Source: a virus
Strand: one strand, 5' to 3'
IMG/VR virus record: IMGVR_UViG_3300037567_001158
Span: 1 to 27,226 of that record
DNA length: 27,226 bases
This document shows, piece by piece, positions 125 through 26,200 of the stretch. Every line of letters starts with the position of its first letter. Position 1 is the stretch's first letter. The position numbers were made by a program, and so were the translations under genes. A model generated the notes under the pieces. The model ran no database searches. It was not told the DNA's origin and saw only the letters and a list, made by a program, of their open reading frames with translations.

Positions 125-424
125 ATGGGCTTTTTAAAGGATGGGGCAAACGGTGAGGGACCAGATCATGAAAATGATCCAGAGCAGAGAGAAGAAGACT
201 ACGAAAAGATGTATATGAAAATTGGACGAGATTTTGTTCATCGTGACGATTTTCAACGAATAATAAGAGAAATGCTACTACTAATGGGGCCTATGGGTCA
301 GGTACCAATTGATACGCTGTCAACAAGTGGTGCTCTAGCTAGAGCACTGGAGTACAAGGGATTTCTGGATACAGAAACTGATGGCAGTACAGTATATCCT
401 GACCTAATTGTTCTGGACGACTAG
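125..424 (+). CDS. Small acidic protein of unknown function
   Basis: This is a 99-residue protein with an ATG start preceded by an AGAGGA ribosome binding site five bases upstream. Residues about 10-28 are strongly acidic (repeated D/E with few hydrophobics). The middle (about 33-55) looks like an amphipathic helix ending in a methionine/leucine-rich stretch. The last residues are again acidic. There is no signal peptide, membrane segment or recognised motif. It sits one base after the upstream gene and four bases before the preferred GTG start of the next one, so it belongs to the same transcription unit. A minor virion or head-assembly accessory role is inferred from position only. An 18-bp perfect palindrome lies inside the gene (330-347). 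Confidence 0.6.
   Translation: MGFLKDGANGEGPDHENDPEQREEDYEKMYMKIGRDFVHRDDFQRIIREMLLLMGPMGQVPIDTLSTSGALARALEYKGFLDTETDGSTVYPDLIVLDD
330..347. repeat. 18-bp perfect palindrome inside a coding region
   Basis: GTGCTCTAGCTAGAGCAC is its own reverse complement. As RNA it could fold into a 7-bp stem with an AGCT loop. It encodes part of the 99-aa protein (around GALARA). No U-tract follows, so it is not an intrinsic terminator. It could be a dimeric protein-binding site or one of the many intragenic hairpins in this window. Confidence 0.85.
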
Positions 425-428
425 TACA

Positions 429-2249
429 GTGAAGAAGAGCGACGAATATTATCTCTACCAATGGGCTTCTCTGATTGTTGACGAGGTAGAAAAAGAAGCT
501 ATCTCTAGCGAAACTAGAGAAGGCAGCTGGCTGGCAATGCGTTCACCGCTTGCTACGATGAGTCAGATTCTTCAGTCTCAAGAAAATATACTTAGAGGAA
601 TTGGCCCAACGATGCCGACTCCAGCTGCCCCTCAATTCTTCAACGAGATGGGTCCAGAATTTCCTGAAAGTCCAGGTATCGATTCTCAAAACGAGGGGAC
701 AGAGGACAACAGCCCTGCTTGTGATGATAACTTTGATCTGTTTGACGTTGAAACGCTTATGCAGAACACTACAACTCCTCAAGTTGTTATCGCTCAGGGC
801 GAGCGAGTTGATCCACTAAGAGAACTATTCTCTAAGTTGAACGAGGATTTTGCCAACTGGGACATAGATCCAGAAAAGACAAGAGACTGGTTTGATGAAT
901 GTCTTGGTTGTGAGCTAAGCATCCAGTTCAATTGGCAGCTCAAACCAATGTCTCTATTGGGACCAATTGGCGATCTACTTCAAGATATAGAGAATATCGT
1001 GAATCAGGTTCTTGATGCAATCAATCCCTTTGGAATGCTAGAAGATCTGTGCTTGATGCTTGATGCGTTTAAGTTCTTTTGTCCTCCAGATTTAATAATG
1101 TTTATGATTTCGCTACAGATGCTTCTCAAGAAGTACATCATGTTCACTTTAGATATTAAGTTGGATTGGACATCAATAGTTGGACCGCTTCTAAAGCTAA
1201 TCGTTGATGCGATGACAATGCTTCTTGAGCAAATAATAGCAATCATTGTTCAGCCATTGGTCTGTATTATAAACGCGCTCGAGATGGCCTCTGGGCTATT
1301 CGAGGAGGGTATAAATGTAGCAAAAACCGCTGTAGCTGCTGGGCAAGCTTTAGGAGATACATTCGCTGGCGCTAACCCGGGTGCAGGACAAGCACCTTCC
1401 TCGATACCATTCCTTGCCGGAGAAGCAAACGGTGTAGGTGGTGGTGAAATTGGATGGGATGGAGGTAGTGCATTTGCTATACCAAGCTTTGGTGATGCAA
1501 TCGGTGGACTGCCAGAACTGCCTGGGATCACATCAAATATTGGTGAGGTAGGAGGGCAAGGTGGATTCTCGCTATTTGGCTCTGGCACAGCAGAAGCACA
1601 GCAAAGTGAAGGTGCTCCGAGTGGTGTTGGGGATTATGGCGTAACTGGACCTCTTGGGCAGAAACTTGCAGCTCTTCAACAGGGGCTGAGTGGTGGCGGT
1701 AGCAAGTCAGTTAGTTTCGGAATTCCCGTTGGCGTAGGGTTGAAAGCAAAAGATACTTTAGCCAAAAGAATGAAAGAGCAAAATTGGAAGTATGTAAATC
1801 CTATTGACAAAGCTATAGTTGCAGTTAAAGAAGTTAAGACTTGGATACAAGAGCTTTTTGGTAACATTCTATTTGCTTTAAAAAGTCTAGATGCTTTTAT
1901 GGGTGGATCTCTAGGATTGCAAATTGGTGGACTTGGAGCTATAAATACAATCCTTGATCTTATTTCACTAGTAATGTTAATAATAAAGATGAAATCAAAT
2001 ATGGGAACAGGTGATCTTGCTGATTGGTGTAGGGAGCTTGAAGAGAACCCAGATAGGGTTAAAGAGTGGCTAAAAATTGTTTATCCTAATGCTACTGTCA
2101 GTCTTAACGAAGACCAGCAAGTTACTATTGAACAGGGCTCGGCATCAATGACTATAGCACCTCCGGAAGACCCCTCATGCACTACTGATGCTCAAGAAGA
2201 GACTCTGCGCTTGCAGTGGGCAGAAGACCTGGCTAGGAGTATGGAATGA
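429..2249 (+). CDS. Large hydrophobic virion-associated protein of unknown function, upstream of portal
   Basis: The protein is about 606 residues from the GTG at 429. The frame also opens at a TTG at 408, which would add seven residues and overlap the previous gene by 17 bp. I prefer GTG because it lies just after the upstream stop, although neither start has a strong ribosome binding site. The N-terminal ~190 residues are acidic and soluble-looking. Residues about 213-290 hold long hydrophobic helices rich in Leu/Ile/Met. About 310-437 is a Gly/Ala/Ser-rich low-complexity region, and about 493-522 is another long hydrophobic stretch. Its stop overlaps the portal start (ATGA), implying translational coupling. 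A membrane-interacting or head-internal virion protein is possible, but I do not recognise the family. Confidence 0.6.
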   Translation: MKKSDEYYLYQWASLIVDEVEKEAISSETREGSWLAMRSPLATMSQILQSQENILRGIGPTMPTPAAPQFFNEMGPEFPESPGIDSQNEGTEDNSPACDDNFDLFDVETLMQNTTTPQVVIAQGERVDPLRELFSKLNEDFANWDIDPEKTRDWFDECLGCELSIQFNWQLKPMSLLGPIGDLLQDIENIVNQVLDAINPFGMLEDLCLMLDAFKFFCPPDLIMFMISLQMLLKKYIMFTLDIKLDWTSIVGPLLKLIVDAMTMLLEQIIAIIVQPLVCIINALEMASGLFEEGINVAKTAVAAGQALGDTFAGANPGAGQAPSSIPFLAGEANGVGGGEIGWDGGSAFAIPSFGDAIGGLPELPGITSNIGEVGGQGGFSLFGSGTAEAQQSEGAPSGVGDYGVTGPLGQKLAALQQGLSGGGSKSVSFGIPVGVGLKAKDTLAKRMKEQNWKYVNPIDKAIVAVKEVKTWIQELFGNILFALKSLDAFMGGSLGLQIGGLGAINTILDLISLVMLIIKMKSNMGTGDLADWCRELEENPDRVKEWLKIVYPNATVSLNEDQQVTIEQGSASMTIAPPEDPSCTTDAQEETLRLQWAEDLARSME

Positions 2250-4105
2250 AACCAGAACTTTTTGAGCTAGCATTATCCGTTTTTGACGCAAAGAGTAACC
2301 CGCCTAAGCGTAAAAAGACGTCTATTCCTGGTACAGGCTTGAAGAAGGTAACAAGTAGAACGCTATCTTACACTCATCGTCATCGCGGACAGTGGTTCCG
2401 ACCAGAGTACGATTTAGAAGAGATACAGATAGCCCAAGATACAGATAGCTATCTATTCAAAGCTCTTCAAAAGAAGACAAATAGATTCATGATCGCTGGC
2501 TGGGAGGTTGTTGGAGACAACCTTGAGACCCTCGATTATGTTAAAGGTAGGCTGCGAGAAATTGAGTTGGCAACCAACACTCCATTCAATGTTTTAGTAA
2601 CTCAAACTGCTCACGACTTGGTGCGGTATTCCAACTGTATGTGGGCCAAAGTTCGAGACAATAAAGCGTCTAGCGGTAAGATTCGTACAAGTGCAACTGG
2701 CAAGGAACTGGATCCTGTTGCAGGATACTTTATTCTTCCTTTTGAGACTTTGCGATTTAAGACAAAGTCCAATGGGGACATAAAGAAATTAATGCAGAGA
2801 ACCCCGTATGGAGAAACTAAAGAGTTTCCGCCTGACGATATCGTTCACTTCTATACAAACAAAAAACCTGGATTTGCCATCGGCACTCCAGAGGTATCTC
2901 CCGTACTAGATGATATCGCTCTATTGAGAAGGATAGAAGAAAACGTAGAAGAACTTATTGAGTCTAACTTGTATCCGTTATTTCACTATCAGGTTGGAAG
3001 CGATGCCTTCCCAGAAAGGTATGGTCCCGACGGTATCAAGGAAACAGATGTAGTAAAAACTACACTTGAGTACATGCCTGCTGGAGGGATATATATATCA
3101 GATCATAGACACAGCATATCTGCGATAGGCTCTGAAGGGCGTGCTCTTCGAATTGATACTTATCTCGAACACTTTAAAAAGAGAGTGTTTGCTGGCCTTG
3201 GTGTTTCTGGCGTGGATATGGGTGAGGGTGATACATCTAATCGCTCAACTGCTAACGCGCTCTCCAAGAGCGCACTTCAAGATGTTGAAGCTTTGCAGCA
3301 GATTGTAAAAGAATTTATCGAATTCTATATCTTTAATGAGTTGCTACTAGAAGGCGGCTATGTTAACGAGCTTTCTAACAGGCAGGATCGTGTGTATATT
3401 AAATTTGGTATTGTTGATAAAGAAGAAAGATCTAGACTAGAGAATCAAACTATTCAGTTGTGGCTTAACAATCTCCTTACCGAACATGAGGCTCGGAAAG
3501 ATCTCGGACTTCCTCCTGTATCAGACGAAGCTAGAGAAGATACAAACTTCAAGTTGTACCAAGAGCCCCTGGCTTTGTTGAAATTCCTTGGGTTCGCTGC
3601 TGCTGATGATGCTTTATCTGAGTCAGTCTCCTCGTCGATTACTTCTGAAGGAGTAAAAAGAGGTGAGGCACAGGCTGAAAGAACGGCGGCAGTAGGTCGC
3701 CCAGCAAACCCTTCCTCCGTTGGAGCACAACGAGCAAATGAGGCAAAAGTGAGACCAGAAAATCAGAATGGAAAGCGTACAGCTCAAAAGTATTCAAGAG
3801 ATGCATACAAGGAATGGCTTGGTGAGCTTGAGCAAGGAATCTCTGAAATAGCGCTAGCTTATGCAGAAGCGCATGATGTTGACAACCCTGTTAATTCAAA
3901 CTATCTTCGAATTCTCATAGAGAATTACGAGCATGACTTTGATAGAATTTCAATGCAACTTGATAAGCGACTTACAGAATTTAAGTCACTTGGTGTAAAA
4001 TCAGAAACCATACTTGATAGTTTTAAATGGAGATTCAGAGATTTAACTCTAAAGTATGTTACTATTGCGCAAAGATCCCAACCTGATTTGACTATTGATG
4101 ACTAA
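2246..4105 (+). CDS. Portal protein
   Basis: The portal is the dodecameric ring at one capsid vertex; it nucleates procapsid assembly, gates DNA packaging and anchors the neck. This 619-residue product shows a typical portal core. It has a DDIVHFYTNKKPGFAIGTPEVSPVLDDIALLRR-type region near residues 200-230 (quoted in part) and, at about 318-337, GVSGVDMGEGDTSNRSTANA, the conserved 'G(V/I)S...mG.g...NRSTA' portal signature, followed by a long stem helix. A polar linker (about 467-510) with a GRPANPSS motif leads to a helical C-terminal extension of about 100 residues, making it longer than many portals. The start has AGGAG six bases upstream and overlaps the previous stop. The protease-scaffold and capsid genes downstream support the call. 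Confidence 0.88.
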   Translation: MKPELFELALSVFDAKSNPPKRKKTSIPGTGLKKVTSRTLSYTHRHRGQWFRPEYDLEEIQIAQDTDSYLFKALQKKTNRFMIAGWEVVGDNLETLDYVKGRLREIELATNTPFNVLVTQTAHDLVRYSNCMWAKVRDNKASSGKIRTSATGKELDPVAGYFILPFETLRFKTKSNGDIKKLMQRTPYGETKEFPPDDIVHFYTNKKPGFAIGTPEVSPVLDDIALLRRIEENVEELIESNLYPLFHYQVGSDAFPERYGPDGIKETDVVKTTLEYMPAGGIYISDHRHSISAIGSEGRALRIDTYLEHFKKRVFAGLGVSGVDMGEGDTSNRSTANALSKSALQDVEALQQIVKEFIEFYIFNELLLEGGYVNELSNRQDRVYIKFGIVDKEERSRLENQTIQLWLNNLLTEHEARKDLGLPPVSDEAREDTNFKLYQEPLALLKFLGFAAADDALSESVSSSITSEGVKRGEAQAERTAAVGRPANPSSVGAQRANEAKVRPENQNGKRTAQKYSRDAYKEWLGELEQGISEIALAYAEAHDVDNPVNSNYLRILIENYEHDFDRISMQLDKRLTEFKSLGVKSETILDSFKWRFRDLTLKYVTIAQRSQPDLTIDD

Positions 4106-4114
4106 ATCTATAAT
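4088..4114 (+). promoter_or_regulatory. Candidate sigma70-type promoter before the capsid genes
   Basis: TTGACT (4088-4093, five of six matches to TTGACA) is followed after a 15-base spacer by a perfect TATAAT (4109-4114). The -35 box lies in the last codons of the portal gene and the -10 box just after its stop. The spacer is shorter than the usual 16-18 bases. It precedes the only sizeable gap between the portal and the tail block, a sensible place to boost transcription of scaffold and capsid genes. A phage-encoded polymerase could use quite different signals. Confidence 0.45.
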
Positions 4115-4151
4115 ATTTCCACTCACACAGACTAGCGTTTTTTAGAATTAC

Positions 4152-4180
4152 TTGTAATACTAGAGTCTTGAAAGTATTAA
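4152..4180 (+). promoter_or_regulatory. Second, weaker candidate promoter in the portal-protease gap
   Basis: TTGTAA (4152-4157) and TATTAA (4175-4180) are separated by exactly 17 bases, each matching four of six consensus positions. The -35 box overlaps a short inverted repeat, ATTAC-TT-GTAAT. The rest of the 120-bp gap (4106-4225) shows no small gene; a T-rich run near 4139 has no stem before it, so I do not call a terminator there. Confidence 0.25.
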
Positions 4181-4225
4181 TAGATTTATAGGATGCAACC
4201 AGCACAGTGATAACTTGGAGATCGG

Positions 4226-6163
4226 ATGTCTGGAGAGTTTAAGTTAATCGACTTCATCAGAATCAACCCTGATGAAAAGATGTGCTCCCTGTCCCTAAAG
4301 GACAAGGTGAGCCTGATCGATGCTGCACTTGACACGAGACGTGAAAATCGAGGCCTTGTGATTACTTATGACTTAAGCCACTCTGGACGAAGAATAAATA
4401 ATAGAATTTATTCAGTCAAGGGTCAGCAATCCGGCGTTAGCACAATACTGTCACCATATGCAAAACCAATTCTTCAACATCACGAAAGCGACCAAGATCC
4501 AATCGGTCGCTTTGTTGGTGCTGAGTGGCAAGATATGTCCTCCGAGGCTATGGGATACTTTACAGATATCTCTTCCTACATGGAGTTGCAAGGCGCCTAT
4601 GATTCAGATGATCCCAAACAGATCTTTAAGAAGATGAAAAAGTTTGGCCTTCTTACTAATAAAGAGTGGCCTGGAATGGGAAGATTAAGAGTACAAGCTC
4701 GAATTACAGACCAGAAAGCTATTGAAAAGTTTCTTGACGGCAGGTACATTACCTTTTCAGCTGGCAGCACTACAGACAGACATGTCTGTAGTATTTGTTA
4801 TTCTGATTGGGCAGATGGTGACCTTTGCGAACACAGGCATGGCCGCATTTATGATGGCGATCCCTGTGTTTTTGTTACTGGAACCTTCAAAGTACTTGAA
4901 GGTTCTGTTGTTAATATGCCTGCTGATGACCTTTCTCAAGTCCTTGCAATGGAAATTCATGATAGCAAACAGCTTTCCAAGGATTGTCAGGACAATTGTC
5001 GCGTAGATATGGAAACAGTCTACCTCACTGACTCTACTTATACGATGGAGCACCAAATGACAGAACAGACCACAGAAGTAACTGAAGACACGGTTGCAGA
5101 AGAGGTTTCTGCTGTAGAAGAAGTAGAAGAAGTTGCTGCTGACAATATTAGCTACTCTGAAGTAGCTGAAGCAGCGCCTTCCAATACGGATATTGAAGAA
5201 GATGCAGAAGCATCTGAAGCAACAGATTCAGCCGAACCCGCAGCAGAGGAGCCCGAAAGCTTCCCTGAGCCTGATATTCAGACAATCATTCAGGACCTAT
5301 CTGCTAAGATAGATATCTTGGTTAACCTTACTGAGCAAAAGCTCAGTGCAGAACCGCAGGCTAGCGAAACTGATACTTCGGAAGAGACTGAGGAGGAAAT
5401 TTCCTTTGATGCAAAGCTCACAAGCGAGCAGCGCAACAAGTTAAAGGAAAGTACTTTCTGTGGTCCTGATAGAAGCTATCCTGTTCCAGACAAAGCACAC
5501 GCTGTTAATGCTCTAGCAAGAGCCAAGCAGCATGCGTCCTCAGAGCTTTACAGTAAAATTAAAGCTTGTGTATGTAGAAAGGCAAATCAAAGCAGCTGGA
5601 GCCTTCCTGCATGCGATGGGGATGATGCCAACCTAATTGAGGCCGAGACAGAGTGGACTGACGAACTTCGTCAGGAAGCTCTAGAAAAGGAATCTCTAAT
5701 TATGGGTTGGGAAGTGATAGATGAGATTAGTGACAATGTAGATGCAGATTACGACTCTCTTCAACAGGATCATGCTCGCGTTCTTAAGCGGGTTGAGACT
5801 CTTGAAGGACAGCTTGATAATGTGTTGACATCGCTAGCGACAAGCAATGAAAAAGATTTTTCTGAGGTAAAAGATACAGATAAGCTTGAAGTTATGTATG
5901 ATTGGTTTGATAAGATTACGCTAACTAGCGAGGAATCAACTACTAATGTAATCCTACAAGTTGAAAATCCTTCTGTAGCTTCTTCTGGTAATGGAGATAG
6001 TCTATCTAATATGGCTAAGAAAGAACTCGGAGACTTTGAGAAAACTATTGTGGAAAAATTCCAGCAAATTCTAGAAACTGATGGGGAAGGTGCTGCTGAA
6101 AGATACGTTGCAACTAAGCAGCGATATCTCCCTCGCGGATTCCATCCTACAAACTATATTTAA
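4226..6163 (+). CDS. Prohead protease fused to an acidic scaffold
   Basis: This 645-residue protein probably shapes the procapsid and then digests internal parts during maturation. Residues 1-245 resemble the caudovirus prohead serine protease family (S78/U35). PILQHHESDQDPIGRF at 81-96 matches the conserved histidine motif 'H....PiG' (H85 or H86), and a serine motif YITFSAGS lies at 174-181. A Cys/His cluster follows at once (C188, C191, C201, H203, H205), consistent with a small zinc knuckle. From about 278 the chain becomes a very acidic, Ala/Glu-rich scaffold-like region. About 398-460 carries the 'RN.L..S.f.gP.r.yPvpD..HA..AL' motif known from the C-terminal parts of many phage head proteins (DUF6582-like, from memory). 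About 509-540 looks coiled-coil. GGAG lies five bases before the ATG. Confidence 0.82.
   Translation: MSGEFKLIDFIRINPDEKMCSLSLKDKVSLIDAALDTRRENRGLVITYDLSHSGRRINNRIYSVKGQQSGVSTILSPYAKPILQHHESDQDPIGRFVGAEWQDMSSEAMGYFTDISSYMELQGAYDSDDPKQIFKKMKKFGLLTNKEWPGMGRLRVQARITDQKAIEKFLDGRYITFSAGSTTDRHVCSICYSDWADGDLCEHRHGRIYDGDPCVFVTGTFKVLEGSVVNMPADDLSQVLAMEIHDSKQLSKDCQDNCRVDMETVYLTDSTYTMEHQMTEQTTEVTEDTVAEEVSAVEEVEEVAADNISYSEVAEAAPSNTDIEEDAEASEATDSAEPAAEEPESFPEPDIQTIIQDLSAKIDILVNLTEQKLSAEPQASETDTSEETEEEISFDAKLTSEQRNKLKESTFCGPDRSYPVPDKAHAVNALARAKQHASSELYSKIKACVCRKANQSSWSLPACDGDDANLIEAETEWTDELRQEALEKESLIMGWEVIDEISDNVDADYDSLQQDHARVLKRVETLEGQLDNVLTSLATSNEKDFSEVKDTDKLEVMYDWFDKITLTSEESTTNVILQVENPSVASSGNGDSLSNMAKKELGDFEKTIVEKFQQILETDGEGAAERYVATKQRYLPRGFHPTNYI
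4769..4792. repeat. Perfect 10-bp inverted repeat, 4-base loop, within the protease gene
   Basis: ACTACAGACA (4769-4778), loop GACA, then TGTCTGTAGT (4783-4792). The centre also contains a 14-bp palindrome, ACAGACATGTCTGT (4776-4789), so a DNA dyad and an RNA hairpin are both possible. It lies exactly over the codons leading into the Cys/His cluster. No U-tract follows. Confidence 0.85.
4881..4905. repeat. Perfect 10-bp inverted repeat, 5-base loop, within the protease gene
   Basis: GAACCTTCAA (4881-4890), loop AGTAC, then TTGAAGGTTC (4896-4905); two G-T pairs could extend the RNA stem. It lies 88 bases after the end of the previous hairpin, in the same gene and about 150 bases upstream of the candidate internal start at 5057. 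No U-tract follows. Confidence 0.85.
5057..6163 (+). CDS. Possible separately translated scaffold (internal start in the protease gene)
   Basis: An in-frame ATG at 5057 (Met278 of the full protein) has GGAG at 5047-5050, six bases upstream, an excellent ribosome binding site for an internal codon. The start falls at the junction between the protease domain and the acidic scaffold region, and would yield a 368-residue scaffold lacking the protease. Phage lambda C/Nu3 uses the same nested arrangement. The position and spacing are visible; that it is used in vivo is inference. A weaker in-frame ATG lies at 5045. Confidence 0.45.
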   Translation: MTEQTTEVTEDTVAEEVSAVEEVEEVAADNISYSEVAEAAPSNTDIEEDAEASEATDSAEPAAEEPESFPEPDIQTIIQDLSAKIDILVNLTEQKLSAEPQASETDTSEETEEEISFDAKLTSEQRNKLKESTFCGPDRSYPVPDKAHAVNALARAKQHASSELYSKIKACVCRKANQSSWSLPACDGDDANLIEAETEWTDELRQEALEKESLIMGWEVIDEISDNVDADYDSLQQDHARVLKRVETLEGQLDNVLTSLATSNEKDFSEVKDTDKLEVMYDWFDKITLTSEESTTNVILQVENPSVASSGNGDSLSNMAKKELGDFEKTIVEKFQQILETDGEGAAERYVATKQRYLPRGFHPTNYI

Positions 6164-6178
6164 TCAGGAGATTAACAA

Positions 6179-7604: not shown

Positions 7605-8909
7605 ATGAACCTCAAATTAGTTGATGGTCGCGAACTGACTCTGCCCTCGAATGAGAATCACGCTGCACGTTATGTAGCCGACCTCTTTAAAAATCGTGGT
7701 CAGCTACCAGACAGCGACGAAAGAATAGAATGGTCCGTATTTGCTGAGACCATCTCCCCCCGTAACCGTGATGCTATCGCAAGCTCTGAGATTACTCCAC
7801 TTCTAGCGAAGTCTATGGAGATTCTTATCAGAGAGCCGGTTGAGCCTCTTGCTATAATCACGGGTCTTTTTAATCGAGTACAGGCGAAGGGTCTAAACAC
7901 CCAGGTCCTTGCTGGTGCGATGGGTGCTGTATATGCTCAGGATGTTCAGGAGCATGGTACCTATCCCGAAGTCAACTTCCAGATCGGTGGAGCGGTAAGT
8001 ACTGCTTGGATCGGGAAGTCCGGTATCGCTGCTTCGTTTACTGACGAAGCTCTCCGATACTCGACTTGGGATATCATGGCTACAAACCTCCGCTTGATGG
8101 GCAACGCTCTTGTTCGTCATAAGGAGCAGAAGGCTGTGAACTTCCTAACCTCGCTAGGAACTACGCTGTTTGATAACCGTACACCTGCTCAGTCTCTTTA
8201 TGGAGTCTGTAGCGGTCGCGATCTTACGCTTGCAGCTAATGGTACCCTCCGAATGGATGACCTGATGCGTGGTATGGCTCATATGTCTGAGGAAGGCTTC
8301 CCTGCTGACACTCTGCTTATGCACCCGCTATTCTACTATTCCTTCATTCAGGATCCTGTCCTGCGAGCTATGATGCTTGCTCATGGCGGTGGTTCCTATT
8401 TCAACACATGGAATGGCAACCCTGGCCCTCAGGCTCCTTGGAGTAATGGTGCACTTGGTGCTACTGGACCCACGAATGGTCAGACGATCGTTCCTGGTGG
8501 CAGCCCCTCTGGTGCTGCAGCGACAACGCTAGCTAATCGACCCAACAGGGCCGATTCTGCTGGTCAGCTTCCTGGGTACTTCCCCTTTAACTTCCGAATT
8601 GTTATTTCTCCTCTGTGTCCCTTCGATCCAGAGCTTCAGAGTGGCAATATCTTCCTTCTCTCTAGTGGTAACGTTGGTTTCCACCTTGTGGACGAAGATC
8701 CCACCACTGTTGAGTGGAGAGACGAAAGTGTAGAGGTAGTCAAGATTAAGATCCGTGAGCGTTACGGCTTTGCCGTTGCTCATGAGGGTCAAGGTGTTGG
8801 TGTTTTCGAGAACGTATCTGCTGGTCAGAACTTCTTCGACGGAACGGTAAATGCAGCTCCGGCAGCTCCGGCTCTGATTCCGCCTGGCACCGCGATCGCT
8901 GGTCTCTAG
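7605..8909 (+). CDS. Major capsid protein (HK97 fold)
   Basis: This 434-residue protein should form the icosahedral shell. Evidence is sequence style and position: portal, protease-scaffold, accessory protein, then this gene. Visible HK97-fold-like elements are an acidic/helical N-terminus, a GKSGIAASFTDEALRYS segment near residue 137 leading into a long spine-type helix (TWDIMATNLRLMGNALVRH), and a P-domain-like DTLLMHPLFYYSFIQDPVLR stretch near 225-245 (quoted here at 20 residues). A Gly/Asn/Pro-rich loop lies at about 258-305. The C-terminus is Ala/Pro-rich. The ribosome binding site AAGGAG lies six bases before the ATG. A strong terminator follows. Whether the N-terminus is cleaved by the upstream protease cannot be read from the sequence. 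Confidence 0.82.
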   Translation: MNLKLVDGRELTLPSNENHAARYVADLFKNRGQLPDSDERIEWSVFAETISPRNRDAIASSEITPLLAKSMEILIREPVEPLAIITGLFNRVQAKGLNTQVLAGAMGAVYAQDVQEHGTYPEVNFQIGGAVSTAWIGKSGIAASFTDEALRYSTWDIMATNLRLMGNALVRHKEQKAVNFLTSLGTTLFDNRTPAQSLYGVCSGRDLTLAANGTLRMDDLMRGMAHMSEEGFPADTLLMHPLFYYSFIQDPVLRAMMLAHGGGSYFNTWNGNPGPQAPWSNGALGATGPTNGQTIVPGGSPSGAAATTLANRPNRADSAGQLPGYFPFNFRIVISPLCPFDPELQSGNIFLLSSGNVGFHLVDEDPTTVEWRDESVEVVKIKIRERYGFAVAHEGQGVGVFENVSAGQNFFDGTVNAAPAAPALIPPGTAIAGL

Positions 8910-8944: not shown

Positions 8945-8975
8945 GGGGTGGGGCTTCCAAGCCCCACCCCTTTTT
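8945..8975 (+). terminator. Strong intrinsic terminator after the major capsid gene
   Basis: GGGGTGGGGC (8945-8954), loop TTCCAA and GCCCCACCCC (8961-8970) form a perfect GC-rich 10-bp stem followed directly by TTTTT (8971-8975). Only 22 bases separate it from the next ATG, leaving no obvious room for a new promoter. Partial read-through probably sets a lower level for the neck and tail genes than for the capsid gene. Confidence 0.93.
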
Positions 8976-10270: not shown

Positions 10271-10279
10271 GATAGTAAG

Positions 10280-12724: not shown

Positions 12725-14863
12725 ATGCCTTATGAGAGCATTCCAGGCACAGGCGCTATCTATCTAGACGGTGCTTTCGCCACATCTACCACTTCCGGAC
12801 AGCCGAGAATTCTACTTCTTGGGGCTTGTTCGAGCGGGTGGACATATGAACTTTTTCAAGTTACTTCGCAAGCAGCTGCCATAAGTGAGTTTGGTCTTGA
12901 TGCTGAAGTAATTAAACCTATGTTTGAGGCTCAGACTCAGGGCGCTGATAACGTTGCTGTCATGCGTATTGGCGGTCGCAAGGGTAGTCTTGTTATTACC
13001 AACGCTGCCGGTACCGGTACAATCACTATTATCCCAGAGTTTAGAGACGACACAATTCTAGATCGATATAAGATTGTTCTAGAAGACAACACTCCCACCG
13101 CAGCTCTTCTCGCTGCACACGGTGCACAGCGAGTTCTTATCTACGATGATGAAGATGGAGCTTGGGTATACGACACAAATGATGAGCTTGTAGTTGATAC
13201 AGGTATTGTTGCTGTCACGCTGGACACTTGGCCCGCAATAGACTCCAAGTTGCTTGGCACCCGAGCCCAGATTGCTCTAGATTACAATACTACTGGACCT
13301 GTAGGCGTTCCGACAATGACTGAAGCGGGTACGGTTGGTACCGTTCCTCTTGCGGACTACCTTGCTGGTGGCGGTGCCGCTGGTAATGTCACAGCTGCGG
13401 TAGAGACTGCCGGTGCAGATAGCACAAACATGACTCTAGTAGAGCGATACGCTGCTCTAAATGAGGCATACAGGCTTCTCGATTACCGGGATGCGGATAT
13501 CATTGTTCCCACGAATATTCTTCTGGATGCTCTAAACATTGCTCCTCGTCAGGGTGCTGCAACTGTTAACTGGAGTGCACTTGTCGATGATGTCAGTACA
13601 AATGGTGGCCTAATAACTGCTGCTATCGGCAATAACGCCAGACAGCTCATGGCTGCTGGCTCTGCTGATGATGCCCTTGGCTACTTGTGGCAGTATCGCT
13701 ACCGAGGCCGTGAGTATACATTCTTCTTTGATACTCCTAGCTTTGCTACTGCAGAGTGTATTCGACATGGAGAGCTTACCGGTGATGATGCTCCTGCTGC
13801 AGTGATTGCTGCACTGGTAGCCTCTGCTACCCTTGCCAACGATCATGAGCTCAGAGAGGTTAACTTCGGACACCAGCTAGCTTCTTTCTGTGAGCACGCC
13901 TCTACAGGCTGGAAGACAATGCTTGGACTTATGTCTGTTGCACCTCCGCCCGCATACGATCGCTCATCTGTTACAGCTTGGGCTGGAGAGCTTCCCTCAT
14001 ACGAGTATGTAAATACGACTCTAGCTGTTCATGGAGCGGCTAATAATGGCGATGGTCTGCTTGGAAACGTTTTCCTTGCGGGTGCAGCAGATGCAAGCGA
14101 TGGCTATCGTGATGCGATGCTAGACAACGGTGCTGCAACCGATGGGCTCGCTTATGGTGGTTTTATCAAGAGTACTGGAGCTACCCTTCCTCAGGGCCTT
14201 CCCTATGGGATCAGCGATAGCGACGAAGCAGTAGATGCTAATCTTAAGCCAGTAGATATTGGTAGGCACCTTTTTGTTTGTTACGATCAGCCGCTACTCT
14301 CACCTGTCGGATACCCCACGACTCCCTATAGAGGGAATCTCGTAGGTACACTTGCCGGCAAGTTTGCAGTAACAGACGAGCGAGAAGAGCCCATTGGAGT
14401 CAATGGGGCGGTTTCGCGAGTATCTGGCGGTGTTCGACTTCTCTATCCCCAGATCAATGATCTAGCTAGCATCAGGATGGTTGGCCTTCGCTTTGAAGAG
14501 GGCTTCGGTTGGATTGTTGTTTCAGCAAGAACAACTGCACACCCTGATAGTGACTATTCTCGCTTGTCAACAATTCGGTCTGTGAACCGAGAACTTGACG
14601 GGATTAGGCTTCTTGCGAGAACCTATATTGGTAAAGAGTTTTCAAGCACTCGACTAATGTCTCTTCAGGCATCCATTGATGGATTCCTGAAGTCTGAACA
14701 GTCTCAAGGTTATAACCAGGGTGCTGTTGCTCGACTTTCTTATACTAGAGCAGATAAGATTCTTGGACGGCTTACAATTCAGCTGAAGATGATCCCTCCC
14801 TTCTCTATCGAATCTATAACTGTAGAAATTTCGCTTGCGGCTGAAGAAGCCGAGCTATCCTAG
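12725..14863 (+). CDS. Contractile tail sheath protein
   Basis: The sheath surrounds the tail tube and contracts to drive it through the host envelope. This 712-residue protein is longer than the T4 sheath (659 aa). It starts with the typical sheath N-terminus: an extended MPYESIPGTGAIYLDG arm, then LLLGACSSGWTYELFQVTS and ADNVAVMRIGG, the 'y.v....eA...FG......' style of the family. The C-terminus, about 625-712, has the conserved pattern of an arginine-rich strand (DGIRLLARTYIGKEF), a long helix and LTIQLKMIPPFSIESITVEI, the usual handshake-arm ending. AGGAGG lies seven bases before the ATG. A tube protein follows directly. A 14-bp palindrome, ACTTGCCGGCAAGT, lies at 14350-14363. Confidence 0.92.
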   Translation: MPYESIPGTGAIYLDGAFATSTTSGQPRILLLGACSSGWTYELFQVTSQAAAISEFGLDAEVIKPMFEAQTQGADNVAVMRIGGRKGSLVITNAAGTGTITIIPEFRDDTILDRYKIVLEDNTPTAALLAAHGAQRVLIYDDEDGAWVYDTNDELVVDTGIVAVTLDTWPAIDSKLLGTRAQIALDYNTTGPVGVPTMTEAGTVGTVPLADYLAGGGAAGNVTAAVETAGADSTNMTLVERYAALNEAYRLLDYRDADIIVPTNILLDALNIAPRQGAATVNWSALVDDVSTNGGLITAAIGNNARQLMAAGSADDALGYLWQYRYRGREYTFFFDTPSFATAECIRHGELTGDDAPAAVIAALVASATLANDHELREVNFGHQLASFCEHASTGWKTMLGLMSVAPPPAYDRSSVTAWAGELPSYEYVNTTLAVHGAANNGDGLLGNVFLAGAADASDGYRDAMLDNGAATDGLAYGGFIKSTGATLPQGLPYGISDSDEAVDANLKPVDIGRHLFVCYDQPLLSPVGYPTTPYRGNLVGTLAGKFAVTDEREEPIGVNGAVSRVSGGVRLLYPQINDLASIRMVGLRFEEGFGWIVVSARTTAHPDSDYSRLSTIRSVNRELDGIRLLARTYIGKEFSSTRLMSLQASIDGFLKSEQSQGYNQGAVARLSYTRADKILGRLTIQLKMIPPFSIESITVEISLAAEEAELS

Positions 14864-16892: not shown

Positions 16893-17570
16893 TTGTCATA
16901 CTATGACTGGGAATACTTTTGTGGCGCTAATGTAGTTGTTGAGCTTGGTGGCAGCATAAGACAGAAGCCAGGCATGCCTGCCCTAGAGGCCGCAGGCATC
17001 TCCTACAACTTCATGGATAGCAGTCAACCAATCTATGGCTATTCTTCTGAATACTTTGACGCAGTTGCTCCAGGACAAAGAATTATTCAAGGCTCAATTG
17101 TAGTTAATTTTGTTCATGCCAATTACATGCATCATAGTATAAACCAGGGTAGAGCTCATGGACTTCCGCCTGACACCGCCAGCATCGCAGATGCTATGCG
17201 AGCTGATGGAGTGCACAACCCTCCAGACGACCAGAGCTTTAACAATCTCTGGAGAACATATCTCAGCAACAGCGGGAGTACTACGTCAACAGCTGAGGCT
17301 GGGCAATTAGCGAGCATGTCTGGTTTGTTCGAGGGTATGCGAAATAAATACTGGGGAGAAGGGGCTAGTTCCACCACCCCGAGTTGGGGTGGTTCGAATG
17401 TGTTTGACATGGGTCCTGCATCTATTAATATAAACTTTGGAAATAAACATCAGATACGATTATCACATGTTGTTTTTATTGGTAGGTCGAGTACAATACA
17501 AATTGATGAAAGTGTGTTATTAGAAGAGTATCCATTTTTCGCACGAAAACTAGTAACATTAGGGAGCTAA
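16893..17570 (+). CDS. Third tail-tube-like protein
   Basis: This 225-residue protein starts at TTG 16893, five bases after an AGGTG site; the next in-frame ATG would remove 26 residues, so TTG is preferred. The key part, residues about 34-72, reads ISYNFMDSSQPIYGYSSEYF then PGQRIIQGSIVVNFVHANYM, which parallels the 'APIY..G......RG.R.IaGsLi.....H.l' core of the two upstream proteins. The C-terminus, with NFGNKHQIRLSHVVFIG and IQIDESVLLEEYPFFA, again resembles tube strands. It is more diverged than the second copy. A tube-end or baseplate-interface role is inferred. An 8-bp hairpin lies at 17373-17393. Confidence 0.55.
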   Translation: MSYYDWEYFCGANVVVELGGSIRQKPGMPALEAAGISYNFMDSSQPIYGYSSEYFDAVAPGQRIIQGSIVVNFVHANYMHHSINQGRAHGLPPDTASIADAMRADGVHNPPDDQSFNNLWRTYLSNSGSTTSTAEAGQLASMSGLFEGMRNKYWGEGASSTTPSWGGSNVFDMGPASININFGNKHQIRLSHVVFIGRSSTIQIDESVLLEEYPFFARKLVTLGS

Positions 17571-17571
17571 G

Positions 17572-18435
17572 ATGACCGTACAAGTTAAACAAACCACAGA
17601 TGGAAGTTTCGCTGTGGGTGGAGATCCTCTTGGAGAGGAAGCCCTTCAGGCTCTCTCTGGAATCTCTGTAAGCGCTGCTGACATTCTTGAACATATGAAT
17701 GGTTTAAATGAAGAAATCTCAGAGAGCTTTGAGGGGCAGATTGCAACTTCAGAAGAAGTTGCAACTAAAACCCTTCCCGAAGTAAATGTTCCCCAGCCTA
17801 TTGGGGCCCAAAAAAAAAAGACAGGAGCTAGAGCGACAACTAGAAGCCAGCCGACAACTAGAGCTATTCCCCGATCTTTGAGAAAAGCCATGGAGCTTGA
17901 AGCTTCAGACCCCCCACCGAGAGAACCCAGTATGCAATCACAAACTGATGATATTACAAATCTAGACAGCGAGCTTGATGCTCTAACAGACACCCTGGAT
18001 AACAGGGAGAATCCCGCCGAGACCGAAGTCGGTGGCGATATGATGCGAGATCAGATCCTAGAGTTACTCCAAAATACTCCAGGAGCACCTTCTGAGGCAC
18101 AGATCAACCAGTGGAAAGTTCAGCATGGTGCCAATGGCGTTCATGTGATGGCTCTTGGTGAAGGCGATATCTATATCTTTACCCACCTGAAGAGAGGGCA
18201 GTGGCAAAAGATTCAAGAGGTCACTGCAAAGGCACAAGAAACTCAAAATGCAGATATTGAGAACGTACTGAAGGAAAAGGTTATTCAGTATGCAACCCTT
18301 TGGCCTAAGCCGCTTACAGTAGAGTTCTTCTACAATTCTAGAGCTGGAGTTGTAGATAGCCTTTATCAGGTGATTCTTTTGAATTCTTACTTCTTGTCTC
18401 CGCAACAAGCAATGCTACTGACCACCCAACTATAA
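17572..18435 (+). CDS. Probable tail assembly chaperone 1
   Basis: The product has 287 residues; GGGAG lies five bases before the ATG. It has three parts: an acidic N-terminal region (1-75), a basic and polar linker (about 80-125: KKKTGARATTRSQPTTRA, then a Pro/Glu-rich stretch), and a C-terminal helical domain (about 160-287) with INQWKVQHGANGVHVMALGE and IYIFTHLKRGQWQKIQEVT. That last domain is typical of small proteins encoded before tape measure genes that keep the tape measure soluble. The gene contains an unbroken A10 tract at codons 80-83. It shares its frame with the next gene, separated by TAA and TAG, so a lambda-style fusion by frameshift is not seen. Confidence 0.58.
   Translation: MTVQVKQTTDGSFAVGGDPLGEEALQALSGISVSAADILEHMNGLNEEISESFEGQIATSEEVATKTLPEVNVPQPIGAQKKKTGARATTRSQPTTRAIPRSLRKAMELEASDPPPREPSMQSQTDDITNLDSELDALTDTLDNRENPAETEVGGDMMRDQILELLQNTPGAPSEAQINQWKVQHGANGVHVMALGEGDIYIFTHLKRGQWQKIQEVTAKAQETQNADIENVLKEKVIQYATLWPKPLTVEFFYNSRAGVVDSLYQVILLNSYFLSPQQAMLLTTQL
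17741..17764. repeat. Perfect 10-bp inverted repeat, 4-base loop, 45 bases before the A10 tract
   Basis: TTGCAACTTC (17741-17750), loop AGAA, then GAAGTTGCAA (17755-17764). It encodes ATSEEVA in the chaperone gene. No U-tract follows. Confidence 0.85.
17810..17819 (+). other. A10 homopolymer: potential frameshift or transcriptional slippage site
   Basis: Ten consecutive A bases lie within codons CAA-AAA-AAA-AAG of the chaperone gene. The zero frame continues to the normal stop. The -1 frame meets TAG at 17829-17831 and the +1 frame meets TGA at 17879-17881, so slippage would give proteins of about 86-103 residues holding only the N-terminal part. Known analogues of slippage-made short forms include bacterial dnaX. 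Use in vivo is inference. Confidence 0.5.
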
Positions 18436-18447: not shown

Positions 18448-19113
18448 ATGGATATAGATGCCATCATTAAAGGTAATGGAAACTTATATCAGACAATCAT
18501 CCCTGAATATGACCTTACCTTCTCATACAGGCTACTCTCACTAAAAGAATACAAAGTATTCCGCAGCTTGAGGGATGGGGGCGTTTTGTCTCCATCCCTT
18601 ATTGCTGATAGGGTTTTTGAGAGATGTTTCCTGGGAAACGCAGTAGTCCTGTCAGTTGATCTACCTGCAGGCATTACTGAAACCATTGGAAACTTAATTA
18701 TGTATTTGTCAGGTGACTGTGACACCCTGACTTTGAAGCAAGATATAGATGTAGCTCGGATGCTACATCCTAAAGATACTGTATACGAGTATATGAGAGC
18801 TGTTATTGTATCTATATTCCCGTATAAAATTGAAGACATAGAGAATTGGTGTCGTCCTCAATTTATACGTAACTTTGCAATTGCAGAGAATATTTTTAGT
18901 AAGCAGAATCCTGAGTACGAGCTGCTAAGCTTGGCAGATATAAAGTCTGCAGAAGAGTTAGCGCAGGCTGAGAAGCAGGAAACTAGCATTGACTTTGAGC
19001 GAGAGAACAGAGCTATCCGAAAAACTATGAGCCCCTTCGATACGGAAGAGGCTGAATCTGGAAAACTTTCAAGGGGTCAGCTTAAAAAGCTATCTGCAGC
19101 ATCTAGGGGGTAG
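18448..19113 (+). CDS. Probable tail assembly chaperone 2
   Basis: This 221-residue protein starts 12 bases after the previous stop with no clear ribosome binding site, so low or coupled translation is likely. The N-terminal part has a pattern common in tape measure chaperones and T4-type baseplate assembly catalysts: a short lead strand (YDLTFSYRLLSLKEYKVFRS) followed by helices with PSLIADRVFERCFLG. It then continues as a helical domain, with a charged C-terminal tail from about 165 (ELAQAEKQETSIDFERENR). A hairpin of 11 pairs (two G-T) lies at 18571-18599 and an 8-bp hairpin at 18748-18769. The assignment rests on the start pattern and on its place just before the giant tail genes. Confidence 0.55.
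   Translation: MDIDAIIKGNGNLYQTIIPEYDLTFSYRLLSLKEYKVFRSLRDGGVLSPSLIADRVFERCFLGNAVVLSVDLPAGITETIGNLIMYLSGDCDTLTLKQDIDVARMLHPKDTVYEYMRAVIVSIFPYKIEDIENWCRPQFIRNFAIAENIFSKQNPEYELLSLADIKSAEELAQAEKQETSIDFERENRAIRKTMSPFDTEEAESGKLSRGQLKKLSAASRG
18571..18599. repeat. Intragenic hairpin (8 Watson-Crick pairs extended to 11 with G-T)
   Basis: AGGGATGGGGG (18571-18581), loop CGTTTTG, TCTCCATCCCT (18589-18599). Two of the eleven pairs are G-T. It lies in the second chaperone gene. A T-rich stretch is in the loop, not after the stem, so it is not a terminator on this strand. Confidence 0.7.
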
Positions 19114-19116
19114 ATT

Positions 19117-22100
19117 ATGGCATACGACCCTTACGGTCCAGACGGGGTCATTTGGAGTTCTGCAGGTTACACCCCTTGGAACCCTCCATCTGAGCGAGGT
19201 GCAAGTCTTGCAGTAGCAGCAGGGCTTGGCATCGGAGCCTTTGGAGTAGCGGCTAACGTTCAAGTGGGCGGTGGTCGAGCGATAGACTACGTACAAAAAG
19301 CTGTACGACACGCCGGGATGGCCTCCCCCTTCAGTATATTAAACACTTTCCGTGTTGCGGAGTGGATGTCTCCATGGATATCTGCTCAGGCTCAAGGCCT
19401 CACACCCCTAGAGGGTGGAGGCATAGGAATGAAATGGGGTTCGGAGTTCACAGGAACTGCAGAAACCAAAGATTTCCTCAGGAAGCTTGTTGGTGATGAA
19501 AAGTGGTACGACTTAGATTTAAAGGGCTCTGCCTTTGAGTTAGAATTCAGAAGAGGCAAGGGTTTTTCTGGTGAGCTCTATGCCCGAGCTACAGAAAGCG
19601 GAGACTGGAAGCAGCTTGCTAAATCCATGGTACTCATGGAGACAACTGCTATAGATCCCTTCCCAGTCGAGGGAAAGGCGGCGAGTCTAGGAAAGCCCCG
19701 CATGAATCAGGCAGCCTTCTCTGTTCTACAGAGTTTAGGTGTTACTGAAGAGTGGGGTGTTCAGTCTCAGAAGAAAGCAGGTAGAGTTCTCTTTAGAGAG
19801 GCTTCTGAAGGCACTGAAGCAGCTCTATCCAAATACATACCAGTACATTCTCCATTTGGAGCAGTTGGCACTAGAGCTGACATTCTTAGAAGATCGACAC
19901 TTCTGACCGCTCCCTACTCTTGGGGAATGGAGCGTTTCAATAGGCTCCTCCAAATCTCTGCAGAGCAAATTCCTGGCCTTGAATCAGCAGGACGAAACAT
20001 AGACAAGGTCTTTGGCTTTAAGGTTGGAGTCCCATCGTCGACTCCACATAAGATGTTTGCTCGCTTTGGTATGCGAGCTGCAGCCATTGGGGGAGCTGGC
20101 CTAGCGGTAACACAAGCTGACTGGATAAGAAGACAAGGTCTTGGAGGAGAGGTAATCGCTTCTGCGGGTGTTTCCGGTGGCGTTGCTTACGCTCTCAACA
20201 AGATGGGAAAAACTCCCAGGACAGCTATTGCAGCAGGCGTAGCAACCTTCTTTGGACAGATGGTGCTTCCTGGCTTTGATCAGGGCATTATTCCTGGGAT
20301 AGCTACAACTGCAACAAATCTTCATTTAGTTAAGTCTGCCATTGGTTCCGCTACATTTATGAGCCAGTATAGAAGAACCCTAGAGGGGTTCTTGCCTGGT
20401 ATCAGTAGCACAGAGATGTCTATCGGTGCAGGAATTGGAGTAGCTGCTCTAGCTTATACTCGACTACCAGGACACCTTCTAGAGAAGTACGGTTCTGAAA
20501 AGCTTCTACCAGCTGCTCTACAAAAGAAGTACGGGTTGGTTGAAGGTACAGTTGGTAGATCGCCCCTAAGTGCTCGAGAAATATACGGAAGAAGCGCCTT
20601 AAGGTATGCAAAAGAAAAAGGAGTAATAAGTCCAGAACAAGCTTCAAAGATAATGGGTACGTCTAGAGTTCCAACCTTTGTACAGCGTACTCGAATAATG
20701 AAGCAACTTCATACTGCTGCTATGGGAAGCGAAGACCTCAAGTGGGGCACCTTCATGGACGACATGCAAGGGCTGTGGCACTCCGCAGTTGCCGAGCACC
20801 AAGAGCTTCTGAAGAAGAACCCCTTTGATAGTTCACTAAAACAGCGACTTCTAGAACTAAATCCAACTACAAATGCTGAGCTAACTCTTCTTCAAAAGGG
20901 GCGTAGAAACTTAGATAGTTTCATAACTTCAGCATACCACTCGTTTATGGGGGCAACGAAAACGGGGGATGACTGGAAGCAAGCTGTCAAAGAAGGAACG
21001 ATAAAACGAGGTGCAGGTAGACTGGCCTTACTGTTTGGAGCTGGTGCTGTAGCGCATAGCTTAGTTACGGGTAGTCTTCTTGGAAGCATGGAGGGTCCTG
21101 GTGAGCTAAGGGATATCTATAAGGGTAAGCAATTAGTTCCTGTTAGACGTGGCAGGTTCTGGGAAGGTGGTGGTACTCCGTTTGCTGGCGGAGAGATACA
21201 ATATCATCGCCCTCACGCTTATGTTCAGATGATGTCGAGATCTCGTCAACGTGCTGTCTGGGGGGAAGGTGAGGACCGACGCAGCCCCATAACAAAGTGG
21301 TTGTTACGAAACTTCACCTACACCCTTGAAGAAGAGACATATTGGGACCGACCGTACCCTGTCAGCGAAGCTGCTTTTGCAAACATTCCAATAATTGGCA
21401 GACCTCTTGCAGCAACAATAGGCAGACTTGTTAAGCCACCAAGACTTATGCATGTCTCTGACTGGGCTAGAGAGGGCCCTGGTGGAGATATAGAGTTTGC
21501 TAGTAGGCCAGAGCACTATGGACCTGCTCCAGGCCTTGGTGGGCTCCCTCCAGGCCGTCCAGGCTCCCCTTATGCTCCCGGCTTCCAGATTGGTTACTTG
21601 AATTACCAGTTTAGAGAACTTGAGGGTATGACAGGTTGGGCCTCTAATGTTTTAACAAAAGCAATAACAGGCTCTGAAACCTTTGGTACGCAAAGACCAG
21701 TATTAGGTTCTTCTGCAGCTATGACTTCACCTAGGGAAGCTTTTTGGGAGCTTGCTTTGGGTGGTGGTTTCTTCACGACAGAGATGGTTCGTAGATTCTT
21801 GCCGAGAACAAGAACTGAACTTAACGAATACAACCCAATACTCAACAGTATGCCGAGTTGGCTGCCTGATCGATTCCATTATGGAGATCCTCTCAGGGTG
21901 GTAGAGATGGGGTATAGCAGACTTCCAGGACCAGGCTACTCAGCAATTCATCCCGAGCTCAAGGGAGTGGACCCAGAAAACTATCCACTTATATACCAGT
22001 ACTCCATACTGGCTGATGTGGCAGGTACTTCGTCAGAATTTAACATTCTTAGAAGAAAGCTTTATGAAAGAAGACAAGCAAAGCGAACCTCAGAAGCAGA

Positions 22101-23226: not shown

Positions 23227-26200
23227 GCTATTTACTTGGGGTGCTCATGAGCCCGAAGAATCAACTGGTTTAGCTCAAAAGACTCCTAGCAGTCTTGCGA
23301 GCCTTGTTGCGCTTGGTCCAGTTGCAGCTGGAGGTATTTACGGGTTCAAGGCTCTTAGATCTAACGAGCCAGGAGCGATACTTGGTTTACGTACAAACAA
23401 CCTCGCAGATGCTGGTGCTACCGTTGGAGACAGCGTTAGACGCATGCAGGCGGCTAGAACTGCTGCCCAGGCACAGAGTACAGAAAAATTTGCTGAATCA
23501 CTCAGAGCAAATTCTGGTGAGAAAGTAAAAGAAATTCTACGAGGAAATGTAGAAAAAAGGAACGCATTCCTTCAAGCAATGCTTTCGACCCTAGAGCAAC
23601 CAGGAGTTGCTCTAGGTCAGGAGAGCAGCGTAAGCGCACTTAGAACTCAGATAGTTGATTTAATGCGGCATGAAGCTGAGATTGTTGACGAGCAAGCAGA
23701 AATCCTAGTTCGGAGTACTCTAGACACAATGATGGAGTCCTCTACCCAGGAAACAAAAGCAGCATTCAAGCACTTCCAGGGCGAGTTCAATAGAATAGCA
23801 CCCTTCATACAGGCTCCCTCAACACAAACCAGAGGCATGAAGCCGGTTTTCCAGACAGTTGATGATGGAGTTTTTGATTTCCTTAGAGGCCTTGACAGCG
23901 GTAGCCGAAAAACCAGTGCTGTTAAAAACTACGAACAACTAACAGACATGCTTTCAGGGACTCGTGGGGCAAGAGTAGAAGTTGGCCGTGTTGTAGAAAG
24001 CGGAGGTATGCAAGGAGCCTATGCTCGCGTTTATGCGGGAAAGCAATTCGTAAAGACAATACCTCTCAGTGTTCCTCGAATAGGTGGTGTTCCAATAGTA
24101 AGACTTGGCGAGGGAATGCAAACCGCTTATGCAGGGAGTAGAGGCTATGGTTCAGCTACAGCACTGCATACTGCCTTAGAATCACTAGGGCCCTCTCCAA
24201 CAGGACCTCAGATAACAGCTGCTGTTCAAAAAAGTGGAGCTGTTTATGGACTGGAGACACATGAGCTACGTCAGTTTCGACGTGAACTAGAAGGAGCTGG
24301 AAGAAATATATTCGCTTTAAATTCAAGGGAGCTTGGTCAGCGACAGCGGACTATGTTGGATAGAGTTGAACGAGCTATGGGTGCAACAGGGTCTACAGAT
24401 CCATTTCTAGCTAAACAAGCGCAACACTTAGAGGGAGGTCTACGAACGAACCGGTCTCTACTAACCATTACCGGTATGGAAGATCTTCCTGCTGGTGCTA
24501 GAGAGCAGCTTAGACCTAGGCTAGCAGCAGCTCCTGGTGGAATGTTTGAAGCAGCTGCACCAGCTGAAGTTGGGAGGCTTCCTGGTGGTGGCGAATTTGC
24601 ACACGTTGGATTGCGAGTTAATAGTCCTATTAATTCAGTTAGACCAATTGGTGAACTAAGCAGACACACACTTCCTGTAACTGCTCGCATAGAGCAGGTT
24701 CCAGGACGAAAGGGAATGTTTCTTCCAGGAGCAGCCTTAGCTTCAAATGAAGCTTTAAATAGTGTGGGTAGAGCTTTGAGTACTGGAGGTACCTTCCATC
24801 AGTGGAATCAGAATGTTCTCTGGGCTGACAATATGGTAGTTAACAGTATGAACAAGGTTCATATTCTTGATGTTCGTGAAGGTGGATCTCGTTTTGGCAT
24901 CGGTCCGGAGGGTGGATCATATGTTGGTGGACGTCAGCACGTTCAGGTTCCACTCACAAAGACAGTGATCGACCCACAAGGAACAGGCCGAGGGTCTCGG
25001 AAGCTAACAGAGTTGCTCCGAGAAAGACATGAGAAGGCTTTAGGACCACTAATTGTTGAGCAACAAGAGCTTCCTGAATTCTTCAAGAAATACGGAGGAT
25101 TTCTTGGCACCGGAGGTGCTGGACAAGAAGTTAACATTGCCAACTACACGGGTCTAAAAAGGCTATCCATGCAGCTTGACCCACTTACACCCTACAGTGA
25201 AACTGGAGGGACTCCACGGATACACCTAATGCTAGGCGGTGTGTTCGATACTACAGGTCAAGGAAAGGGATTCGGAGGTCTATTTAAGGGAGTTATGAAA
25301 GAGGGGACTCCTGCTGCTATGGCAGGGCTCCGAGCCGAGAATCCATTCGTAGATACCCTTATGAAACGGCTAGGAATACAGTCAGCTGATACTATTTTTG
25401 CAGGCCCAGGCATGCTTAAGAAGGCATCCCATATTCTAGCACTTCAGATGCTCACTGGTTATGGTACAACCACCAAGCATCCAGGAGGAGCTGCTGGGCT
25501 ATTTGATCAGATACACAAGGAGGTGCAGATTGCTGGAAAAGAATTCACCCAAGGCCCACGTGAGAGTGCGAGAAATTTTGCTACTCGAAGACAACTTCTG
25601 GCAACTACAGATGTACTATCTGGACGAATGGCTAAAGCTAAGGTTCCTGCAGTTGCCGCAGGCGGTGTACTTGCTGGTATCTTCAGCAAGGAGATTGCGG
25701 GAGCTCATGGAGTTGAGCATGAGGCTGTTAGAAAAATTATTACCAGACATTGGGGAGAAAAGGGTGGAGCAGCAGTAATGAAAGAAGCAGCCGAAGGTTT
25801 TGCCCTTGGTGCAGCAGGTCTCACTGCGGGCCCACTGCCCGCTATATTGCGTGGAGCTGAAGCCTCTGTGACTCCACGATTCTTCCAATTCTTACAGCAT
25901 CAGCTACAGAGTGTTATTGGCTTATCTCAAGATGCAACAAGTGAAATGCTTGCTAGTATCCTTGCAAGCAAGCCTGGTGCAGCTAAACACATGAACATTG
26001 TTAAAGGTCTTACCGAGGTGCAGGGCACTCTTCGTGGTGAAGCTGGACTTCTAAATAAAGAGTTAGCAGGGTTGCCCAGAGTTTCGGCCAAAGACTTCTC
26101 TCAGCTACAACCAGATGATATTCGAGGCTTCTTACAGCAACATAAGAAAGGGTTCATGCTTAGTTTTGGATCCTCTGATACTGCAATGGGCAAGGCTGCT

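Follow-up and report, generated by a model that had tools for sequence, protein, structure and literature searches.

The coding DNA of the uncultured tailed phage described here, and of the lineage to which it belongs, holds far more perfect hairpins than chance provides, and these extra hairpins are probably by-products of mutation, left by template-switch ('quasi-palindrome') correction during DNA replication, rather than signals. The window, by which we mean the whole stretch of DNA analysed, is a 27-kb virus record (27,226 nucleotides), and hairpin counts are from coding DNA unless stated otherwise. Its gene content is that of the structural genes of a large myovirus, with all main genes on the plus strand. 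Three of its genes were identified as follows:

2246..4105, plus strand, portal protein gene (PHROG 9232, E 3e-51; 34-35% identity to the portals of MTATph1, ME3 and KLEB27-3)
7605..8909, plus strand, major capsid protein gene (PHROG 3922)
12725..14863, plus strand, tail sheath gene (PHROG 16991)

Judged by the portal, the closest isolates are Moorella phage MTATph1, Acinetobacter phage vB_AbaM_ME3 and Bacillus phage vB_BauM_KLEB27-3 (34-35% identity), which share with the window a related portal and structural genes in similar order, but which the portal tree places outside the window's clade. No phage isolate was a near match at the DNA level, the capsid protein as query found no relative in bacterial or archaeal genomes, and the sheath as query found no relatives. 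IMG/VR holds five near-identical contigs (L005, L006, L007, L027 and L038) together with dozens of relatives whose proteins are about 50-80% identical. Two neighbouring genes 3' of the sheath, 14874-15527 and 15574-16884, both match PHROGs 9206 and 34314, for which the library gives major head protein and unknown despite the place of these genes after the sheath; the pair may be a duplication of a tail-tube gene to which the library gives a wrong name.

The first-pass annotation, made by eye, had drawn attention to five intragenic stems of at least 10 bp and to loopless palindromes of 18 and 14 bp, and all of these lie exactly where it placed them. The entries of its hairpin list are real, but the longest hairpin in the window, at 8945-8970, was overlooked. 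The features are as follows:

4769..4792, perfect 10-bp stem, loop 4, in gene 4226-6163; identical in L005, L007, L027 and L038
4881..4905, perfect 10-bp stem, loop 5, in gene 4226-6163; identical in L005, L007, L027 and L038
9804..9830, perfect 10-bp stem, loop 7, in gene 9167-10270; identical in L007
17741..17764, perfect 10-bp stem, loop 4, in gene 17572-18435
23590..23616, perfect 11-bp stem, loop 5, in gene 23210-27226
4253..4276, 8-bp stem, loop 8
4392..4413, 8-bp stem, loop 6
17373..17393, 8-bp stem, loop 5
18748..18769, 8-bp stem, loop 6
20373..20393, 8-bp stem, loop 5
25084..25106, 8-bp stem, loop 7
8031..8050, 7-bp stem, loop 6, in the major capsid gene at the ASFTDEA motif
330..347, 18-bp loopless palindrome, probably chance
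14350..14363, 14-bp loopless palindrome, probably chance
8945..8970, plus strand, 12-bp hairpin with a TTTTT tail; intrinsic terminator, intergenic, directly 3' of the capsid gene

Only 8945-8970 combines a G+C-rich stem with a U-run; it is an ordinary intrinsic terminator, and stands outside the hairpin excess and the five-stem count. None of the five intragenic stems qualifies, and a T-run follows none of them, in agreement with the earlier statement that no terminators are among them. Stems 4769, 4881 and 9804 match letter for letter in independent near-identical contigs that overlap them and are therefore not assembly errors; the comparison covers these three, 17741 and 23590 lying outside the near-identical contigs.

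The null expectation was generated by shuffling synonymous codons within each gene, which keeps the protein and its codon usage, in 1000 shuffles with loops of 3-8 bases allowed. Against this null, the window's coding sequences contain 5 stems of at least 10 bp where 0.16 are expected, and the highest single shuffle reached 3. The excess extends to shorter stems, with 11 against 2.8 expected at 8 bp or more, 33 against 10.1 at 7 bp or more, and 86 against 37.5 at 6 bp or more. Codon-preserving shuffles had been named beforehand as the means by which the observation might be refuted, and they do not reproduce the 10-bp count; the hand estimate of about 0.15 stems of 10 bp was also sound, as base shuffling gives 0.13 and codon shuffling nearly the same. 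The hairpins of the window are thereby confirmed as real and far above chance.

The hairpin excess is a property of the whole lineage. Across the coding DNA of 50 related loci we counted 256 stems of at least 8 bp where 71.6 were expected, compared with 120 where 103 were expected in 116 random IMG/VR loci treated alike. For long related contigs, pieces covering most of each contig were tested, and the excess was found nearly throughout, beyond the structural genes. The 192-kb relative G002 has 106 stems of at least 8 bp against 16 expected and 22 of at least 10 bp against 1.2, and further long relatives follow at 8 bp or more: G007 (46 against 11), G004 (28 against 11), G006 (36 against 18) and G001 (33 against 15). 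On the same yardstick, a 50-kb stretch of E. coli K-12 gives 5 against 4.5 (1.1x) and T4 gives 11 against 7.8 (1.4x). At 7 bp or more, the ratios of the 33 clade members in the portal tree span about 1x to 7x, and in the three isolates outside the clade the excess is weak or absent, unlike in the window's lineage (ME3 1.9x, MTATph1 1.3x and KLEB27-3 1.3x).

Some individual sequences depart from their group. The genes of T7 (L181, NC_001604) are depleted of stems, the opposite of the window's lineage, with 2 against 9.0 expected at 7 bp or more and 0 against 2.2 at 8 bp or more. Two random viral contigs from outside the lineage, L125 and L114, have a strong excess (13 against 2.3 and 12 against 2.1, at least 7 bp), and hairpin excess is therefore not unique to the window's clade. 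The first 20 kb of the G001 contig (L218, G001:1-20000), perhaps of other origin, has a ratio of 2.5x at 6 bp compared with 1.3-1.7x in the rest of the contig.

The composition of the stems was informative as to the level at which they form. In 1.2 Mb of clade coding sequence, we took pairs having at least 3 Watson-Crick pairs on each side and compared them with shuffles. Watson-Crick pairs occurred at such positions 2.67 times as often as in shuffles, G-T and A-C 1.24 and 1.23 times (standard errors 0.05 and 0.06), and A-G (1.24x) and C-T (1.14x) were similar to these. Expressed as closures, G-U numbered 510 against 412.0 expected and A-C 476 against 387.2; the preference of G-U over A-C expected of conserved RNA elements or RNase III sites was not found. 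A selected RNA stem would favour G-U on the sense strand, and the equal enrichment therefore argues against RNA. In the loops, A and T are enriched by about equal amounts and composition is symmetric between strands; GNRA loops show no preference over their complements. The stems are positioned evenly along genes, and Rfam has no match in the window.

The dependence on loop size was pronounced. In the lineage, at 8 bp or more, stems with loops of 0 or 1 are not enriched (9 against 12.5, and 12 against 13.2), and enrichment peaks at loops of 4, 5 and 6 (51 against 10, 48 against 7, and 52 against 11.5); the enriched range runs from about 2 to 12 bases, with the baseline reached by about 13-14. 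As the lineage shows no enrichment of loopless palindromes, those at 330-347 and 14350-14363 are probably due to chance, and we dropped the class from the phenomenon. The pair that closes the loop is biased as well: 5'-C...G-3' makes up 28.6% and G...C 16.4%, with a null of 18.1% each (P 5e-13), and random contigs show no such C-G closing bias (137 against 144). A C-G closing pair stabilises DNA hairpins. The arms share no common sequence, as the first reading had noted, the commonest 6-mer occurring in 6 of the 163 stems of G002. The excess is a DNA-level one, strand-symmetric, Watson-Crick-only and hairpin-dependent.

We compared relatives for the persistence of individual stems. In a column shuffle, synonymous codons were re-dealt among relatives within each alignment column, keeping each protein and the column's codon usage. 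This lowered the number of stems of at least 8 bp from 27 to 6.2 in the portal, from 15 to 6.0 in the capsid and from 28 to 10.2 in gene 4226-6163, and barely changed the sheath (5 against 3.9). Much of the excess is thus removed, and the stems therefore arise within lineages. Among 90 stems examined in pairs of relatives, 20 were fully paired in the partner, and 16 of those 20 were without differences on both arms. Most stems are lineage-specific and are not kept in relatives. Absence from relatives with no compensatory change had been proposed as a refutation of the excess; absence is mostly what we found, and it speaks against conserved function, not against the excess, which stands.

A few stem axes do recur in diverged relatives, more often than random placement gives (12 pairs against 0.5 in the portal, 111 against 0.6 in the capsid), and one co-varies. 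The axis of stem 4392-4413 carries longer stems in L031 and L046. The best recurring axis is that of the capsid ASFTDEA motif (8031-8050), where most of the stem is fixed by the protein. The third bases of its Ser (TCR) and Asp (GAY) codons co-vary, with TCG-GAC in 11, TCG-GAT in 3, TCA-GAC in 0 and TCA-GAT in 7 (P 0.001, by a statistic that ignores kinship). Recurrent correction of protein-imposed near-palindromes would explain both the recurring axes and this covariation, but selection could explain them too, in the case of the motif as selection at that single site.

We also sought the footprints of single events. At one site L293 reads CGTGTCTG-acca-CAGACACG where L023, L015 and L250 read CGTGTCTG-acca-CCGGCATG, with all changes in one arm; L298 offers a second instance that resembles correction (GTATATGCC...GGCATATAC against GTATATGCC...GGTATGTAT), and L032 supplies another correction-like case. 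The three look like textbook corrections. Taken in bulk, differences confined to one arm were no commoner than in control windows (12 of 63, compared with 17%), among relatives about 75-93% identical and perhaps too diverged for the purpose; at two or three changes the figure was 9 of 27, no more than in controls, in pairs again perhaps too diverged. The near-identical contigs show 97 differences, of which 5 fall in the arms of stems of at least 8 bp where 1.7 are expected (P 0.03), a suggestive result; with stems at 6 bp the same 97 differences give no excess (7 against 10.3 expected). Among the 5 is one in the window's stem 4392-4413: the one difference from L006, 4394 A/C, breaks the stem in L006.

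Template-switch correction would proceed from imperfect inverted repeats, which are numerous in coding DNA by chance. As the DNA replicates, the nascent strand, or single-stranded DNA that is exposed, may fold back on itself; the polymerase would then copy a few bases off the other arm, not off the proper template, before it returns, and mismatched pairs would become Watson-Crick pairs. The need for a hairpin would favour loops of about 3-8 bases and stable closing pairs but not loopless palindromes. Since DNA is what is copied, the two strands would be equivalent and a G-U pair would have no advantage over A-C. Since correction is blind, stems would form in any gene, whatever the sequence, and drift would later remove them. 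We infer that the copying takes place at the phage's replication fork, and that the lineage's replication or repair either causes such copying to occur often or does not reverse it. Of the four causes suggested at the outset, template-switch repair fits all the compositional tests, whereas RNase III sites, translation pacing and protein sites are disfavoured.

The signal would also be DNA-level, strand-symmetric and hairpin-dependent if hairpins were selected as DNA structures, serving recombination, replication restart, packaging or the docking of a structure-specific protein without sequence preference. The spread of the excess across whole contigs and the axes that recur in diverged relatives suit such selection, but stem positions are mostly unconserved, the excess rises smoothly from 5 bp with no length preferred, and its strength differs among members of the lineage, from about 1x to 7x; we consider this explanation unlikely. 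Selection for hairpins in mRNA, as RNase III or other processing sites, for protection of transcripts from decay or for translation pacing, would account for the placement of the stems in coding DNA and for the co-varying third positions of the capsid Ser and Asp codons, and a C-G closing pair favours RNA hairpins too. Yet G-U closures are not enriched above A-C, loop A and T rise equally, GNRA does not exceed its complement, the stems spread evenly along genes and most are not retained in relatives. RNA-level selection was rejected on G-U versus A-C, loop symmetry and position in genes, and we accord mRNA hairpins a small probability.

Dyads recognised by a DNA-binding protein, whether of the phage or of its host, commonly take the form of inverted repeats, but the arms share no sequence, loops of 0-1 are unenriched and the loop range is broad; the missing arm motif and the loop profile contradict dyad sites, which are highly improbable here. 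Scans by eye pick out the best cases, and chance, base composition or an artefact of assembly or amplification had to be considered for that reason. Against these stand the 10-bp count, never reached in 1000 codon-preserving shuffles, the presence of the excess in dozens of contigs from different metagenomes, and the identity of independent assemblies, which together contradict chance and artefact and leave them hardly any likelihood. Template-switch correction is the explanation we prefer.

Candidate replication and repair causes were examined among the encoded proteins. A C-family polymerase is encoded in records G001, G002, G004, G006 and G010; we rejected it as a sufficient cause, since MTATph1 and KLEB27-3 also encode one and have little hairpin excess. 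In G002 the gene for this DNA polymerase III alpha is split into pieces (L214, G002:100001-120000, positions 1-5907), with separate ORFs bearing PF07733 halves, a finger domain and HHH/OB domains, and between the pieces lie an ORF of the LAGLIDADG type and a group I intron matched by Rfam (4257-4493). An IMP dehydrogenase-like gene (L214:8855-9901) and a PfkB-family gene (10121-10924) adjoin the replication genes of this relative. SbcD_C was absent from 10 of 10 clade records searched, the records being fragments, and an SbcC-type AAA_23 domain was found only in MTATph1 and ME3. Loss of SbcCD is nevertheless not supported as the cause: metallophosphoesterases are present in most of these fragmentary clade records, and KLEB27-3 is without AAA_23 yet also without the excess. 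No enzyme-level cause of the excess was found. A bolder proposal, which we put forward only as a tentative possibility, is that in this lineage of large uncultured myoviruses template switching at hairpins is far more frequent than in known phages or E. coli, that it is a main source of substitutions and shapes codons, and that a distinctive feature of the replisome, such as the C-family polymerase, is responsible.

Where microbial genomes carry small inverted repeats in excess, this has previously been attributed to template switching, but strongly differing lineages are needed to learn which replication component sets the rate of the switch. The present lineage is several times richer in hairpins than random viral contigs, T4, T7 and the E. 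coli sample and is internally variable, and therefore offers a natural comparison. A caution also follows, in that perfect hairpins in the genes of such phages, even with apparent covariation, should not be taken for functional RNA. We found no paper on intragenic hairpin excess across a phage lineage in a literature search that had most subscription journals outside its reach.

Quasi-palindrome correction by template switching is a known process (PMC7202029), whose first cases, as cited there, were yeast CYC1 and T4 rIIB (Ripley 1982), with a hotspot in E. coli thyA (Dutra and Lovett 2006) also cited. As in the window's lineage, imperfect inverted repeats are perfected by copying one arm and a hairpin is required; that process is known from single hotspots and reporter assays, whereas the lineage-wide excess is known from sequence alone. 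In yeast, coding genes have been shown to carry template-switch mutations (PMC8604942), and in rRNA template switching can create and maintain hairpins with compensatory changes, favoured by 4-base loops and by loops stable as DNA (PMC8794818). Homogenisation of arms is common to those studies and to the present lineage, but they traced events on dense phylogenies, for which the window's relatives are too diverged. A genome-wide excess of small inverted repeats was reported by van Noort et al. 2003 (as cited in PMC10434271), and a survey of 118,019 genomes found inverted-repeat enrichment in all domains, least marked in viruses, with a preference for a 4-base spacer in bacteria and with the repeats densest outside genes (PMC13155455). 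In these surveys, as here, perfect inverted repeats exceed those of shuffled sequence; such enrichment is general in microbial genomes, and the kind of phenomenon is therefore already known. In contrast to the larger survey, the excess in this lineage is intragenic and amounts to 3.6x, reaching 18x for stems of at least 10 bp in G002, a strength and a clade-wide spread within genes that look unusual for phages.
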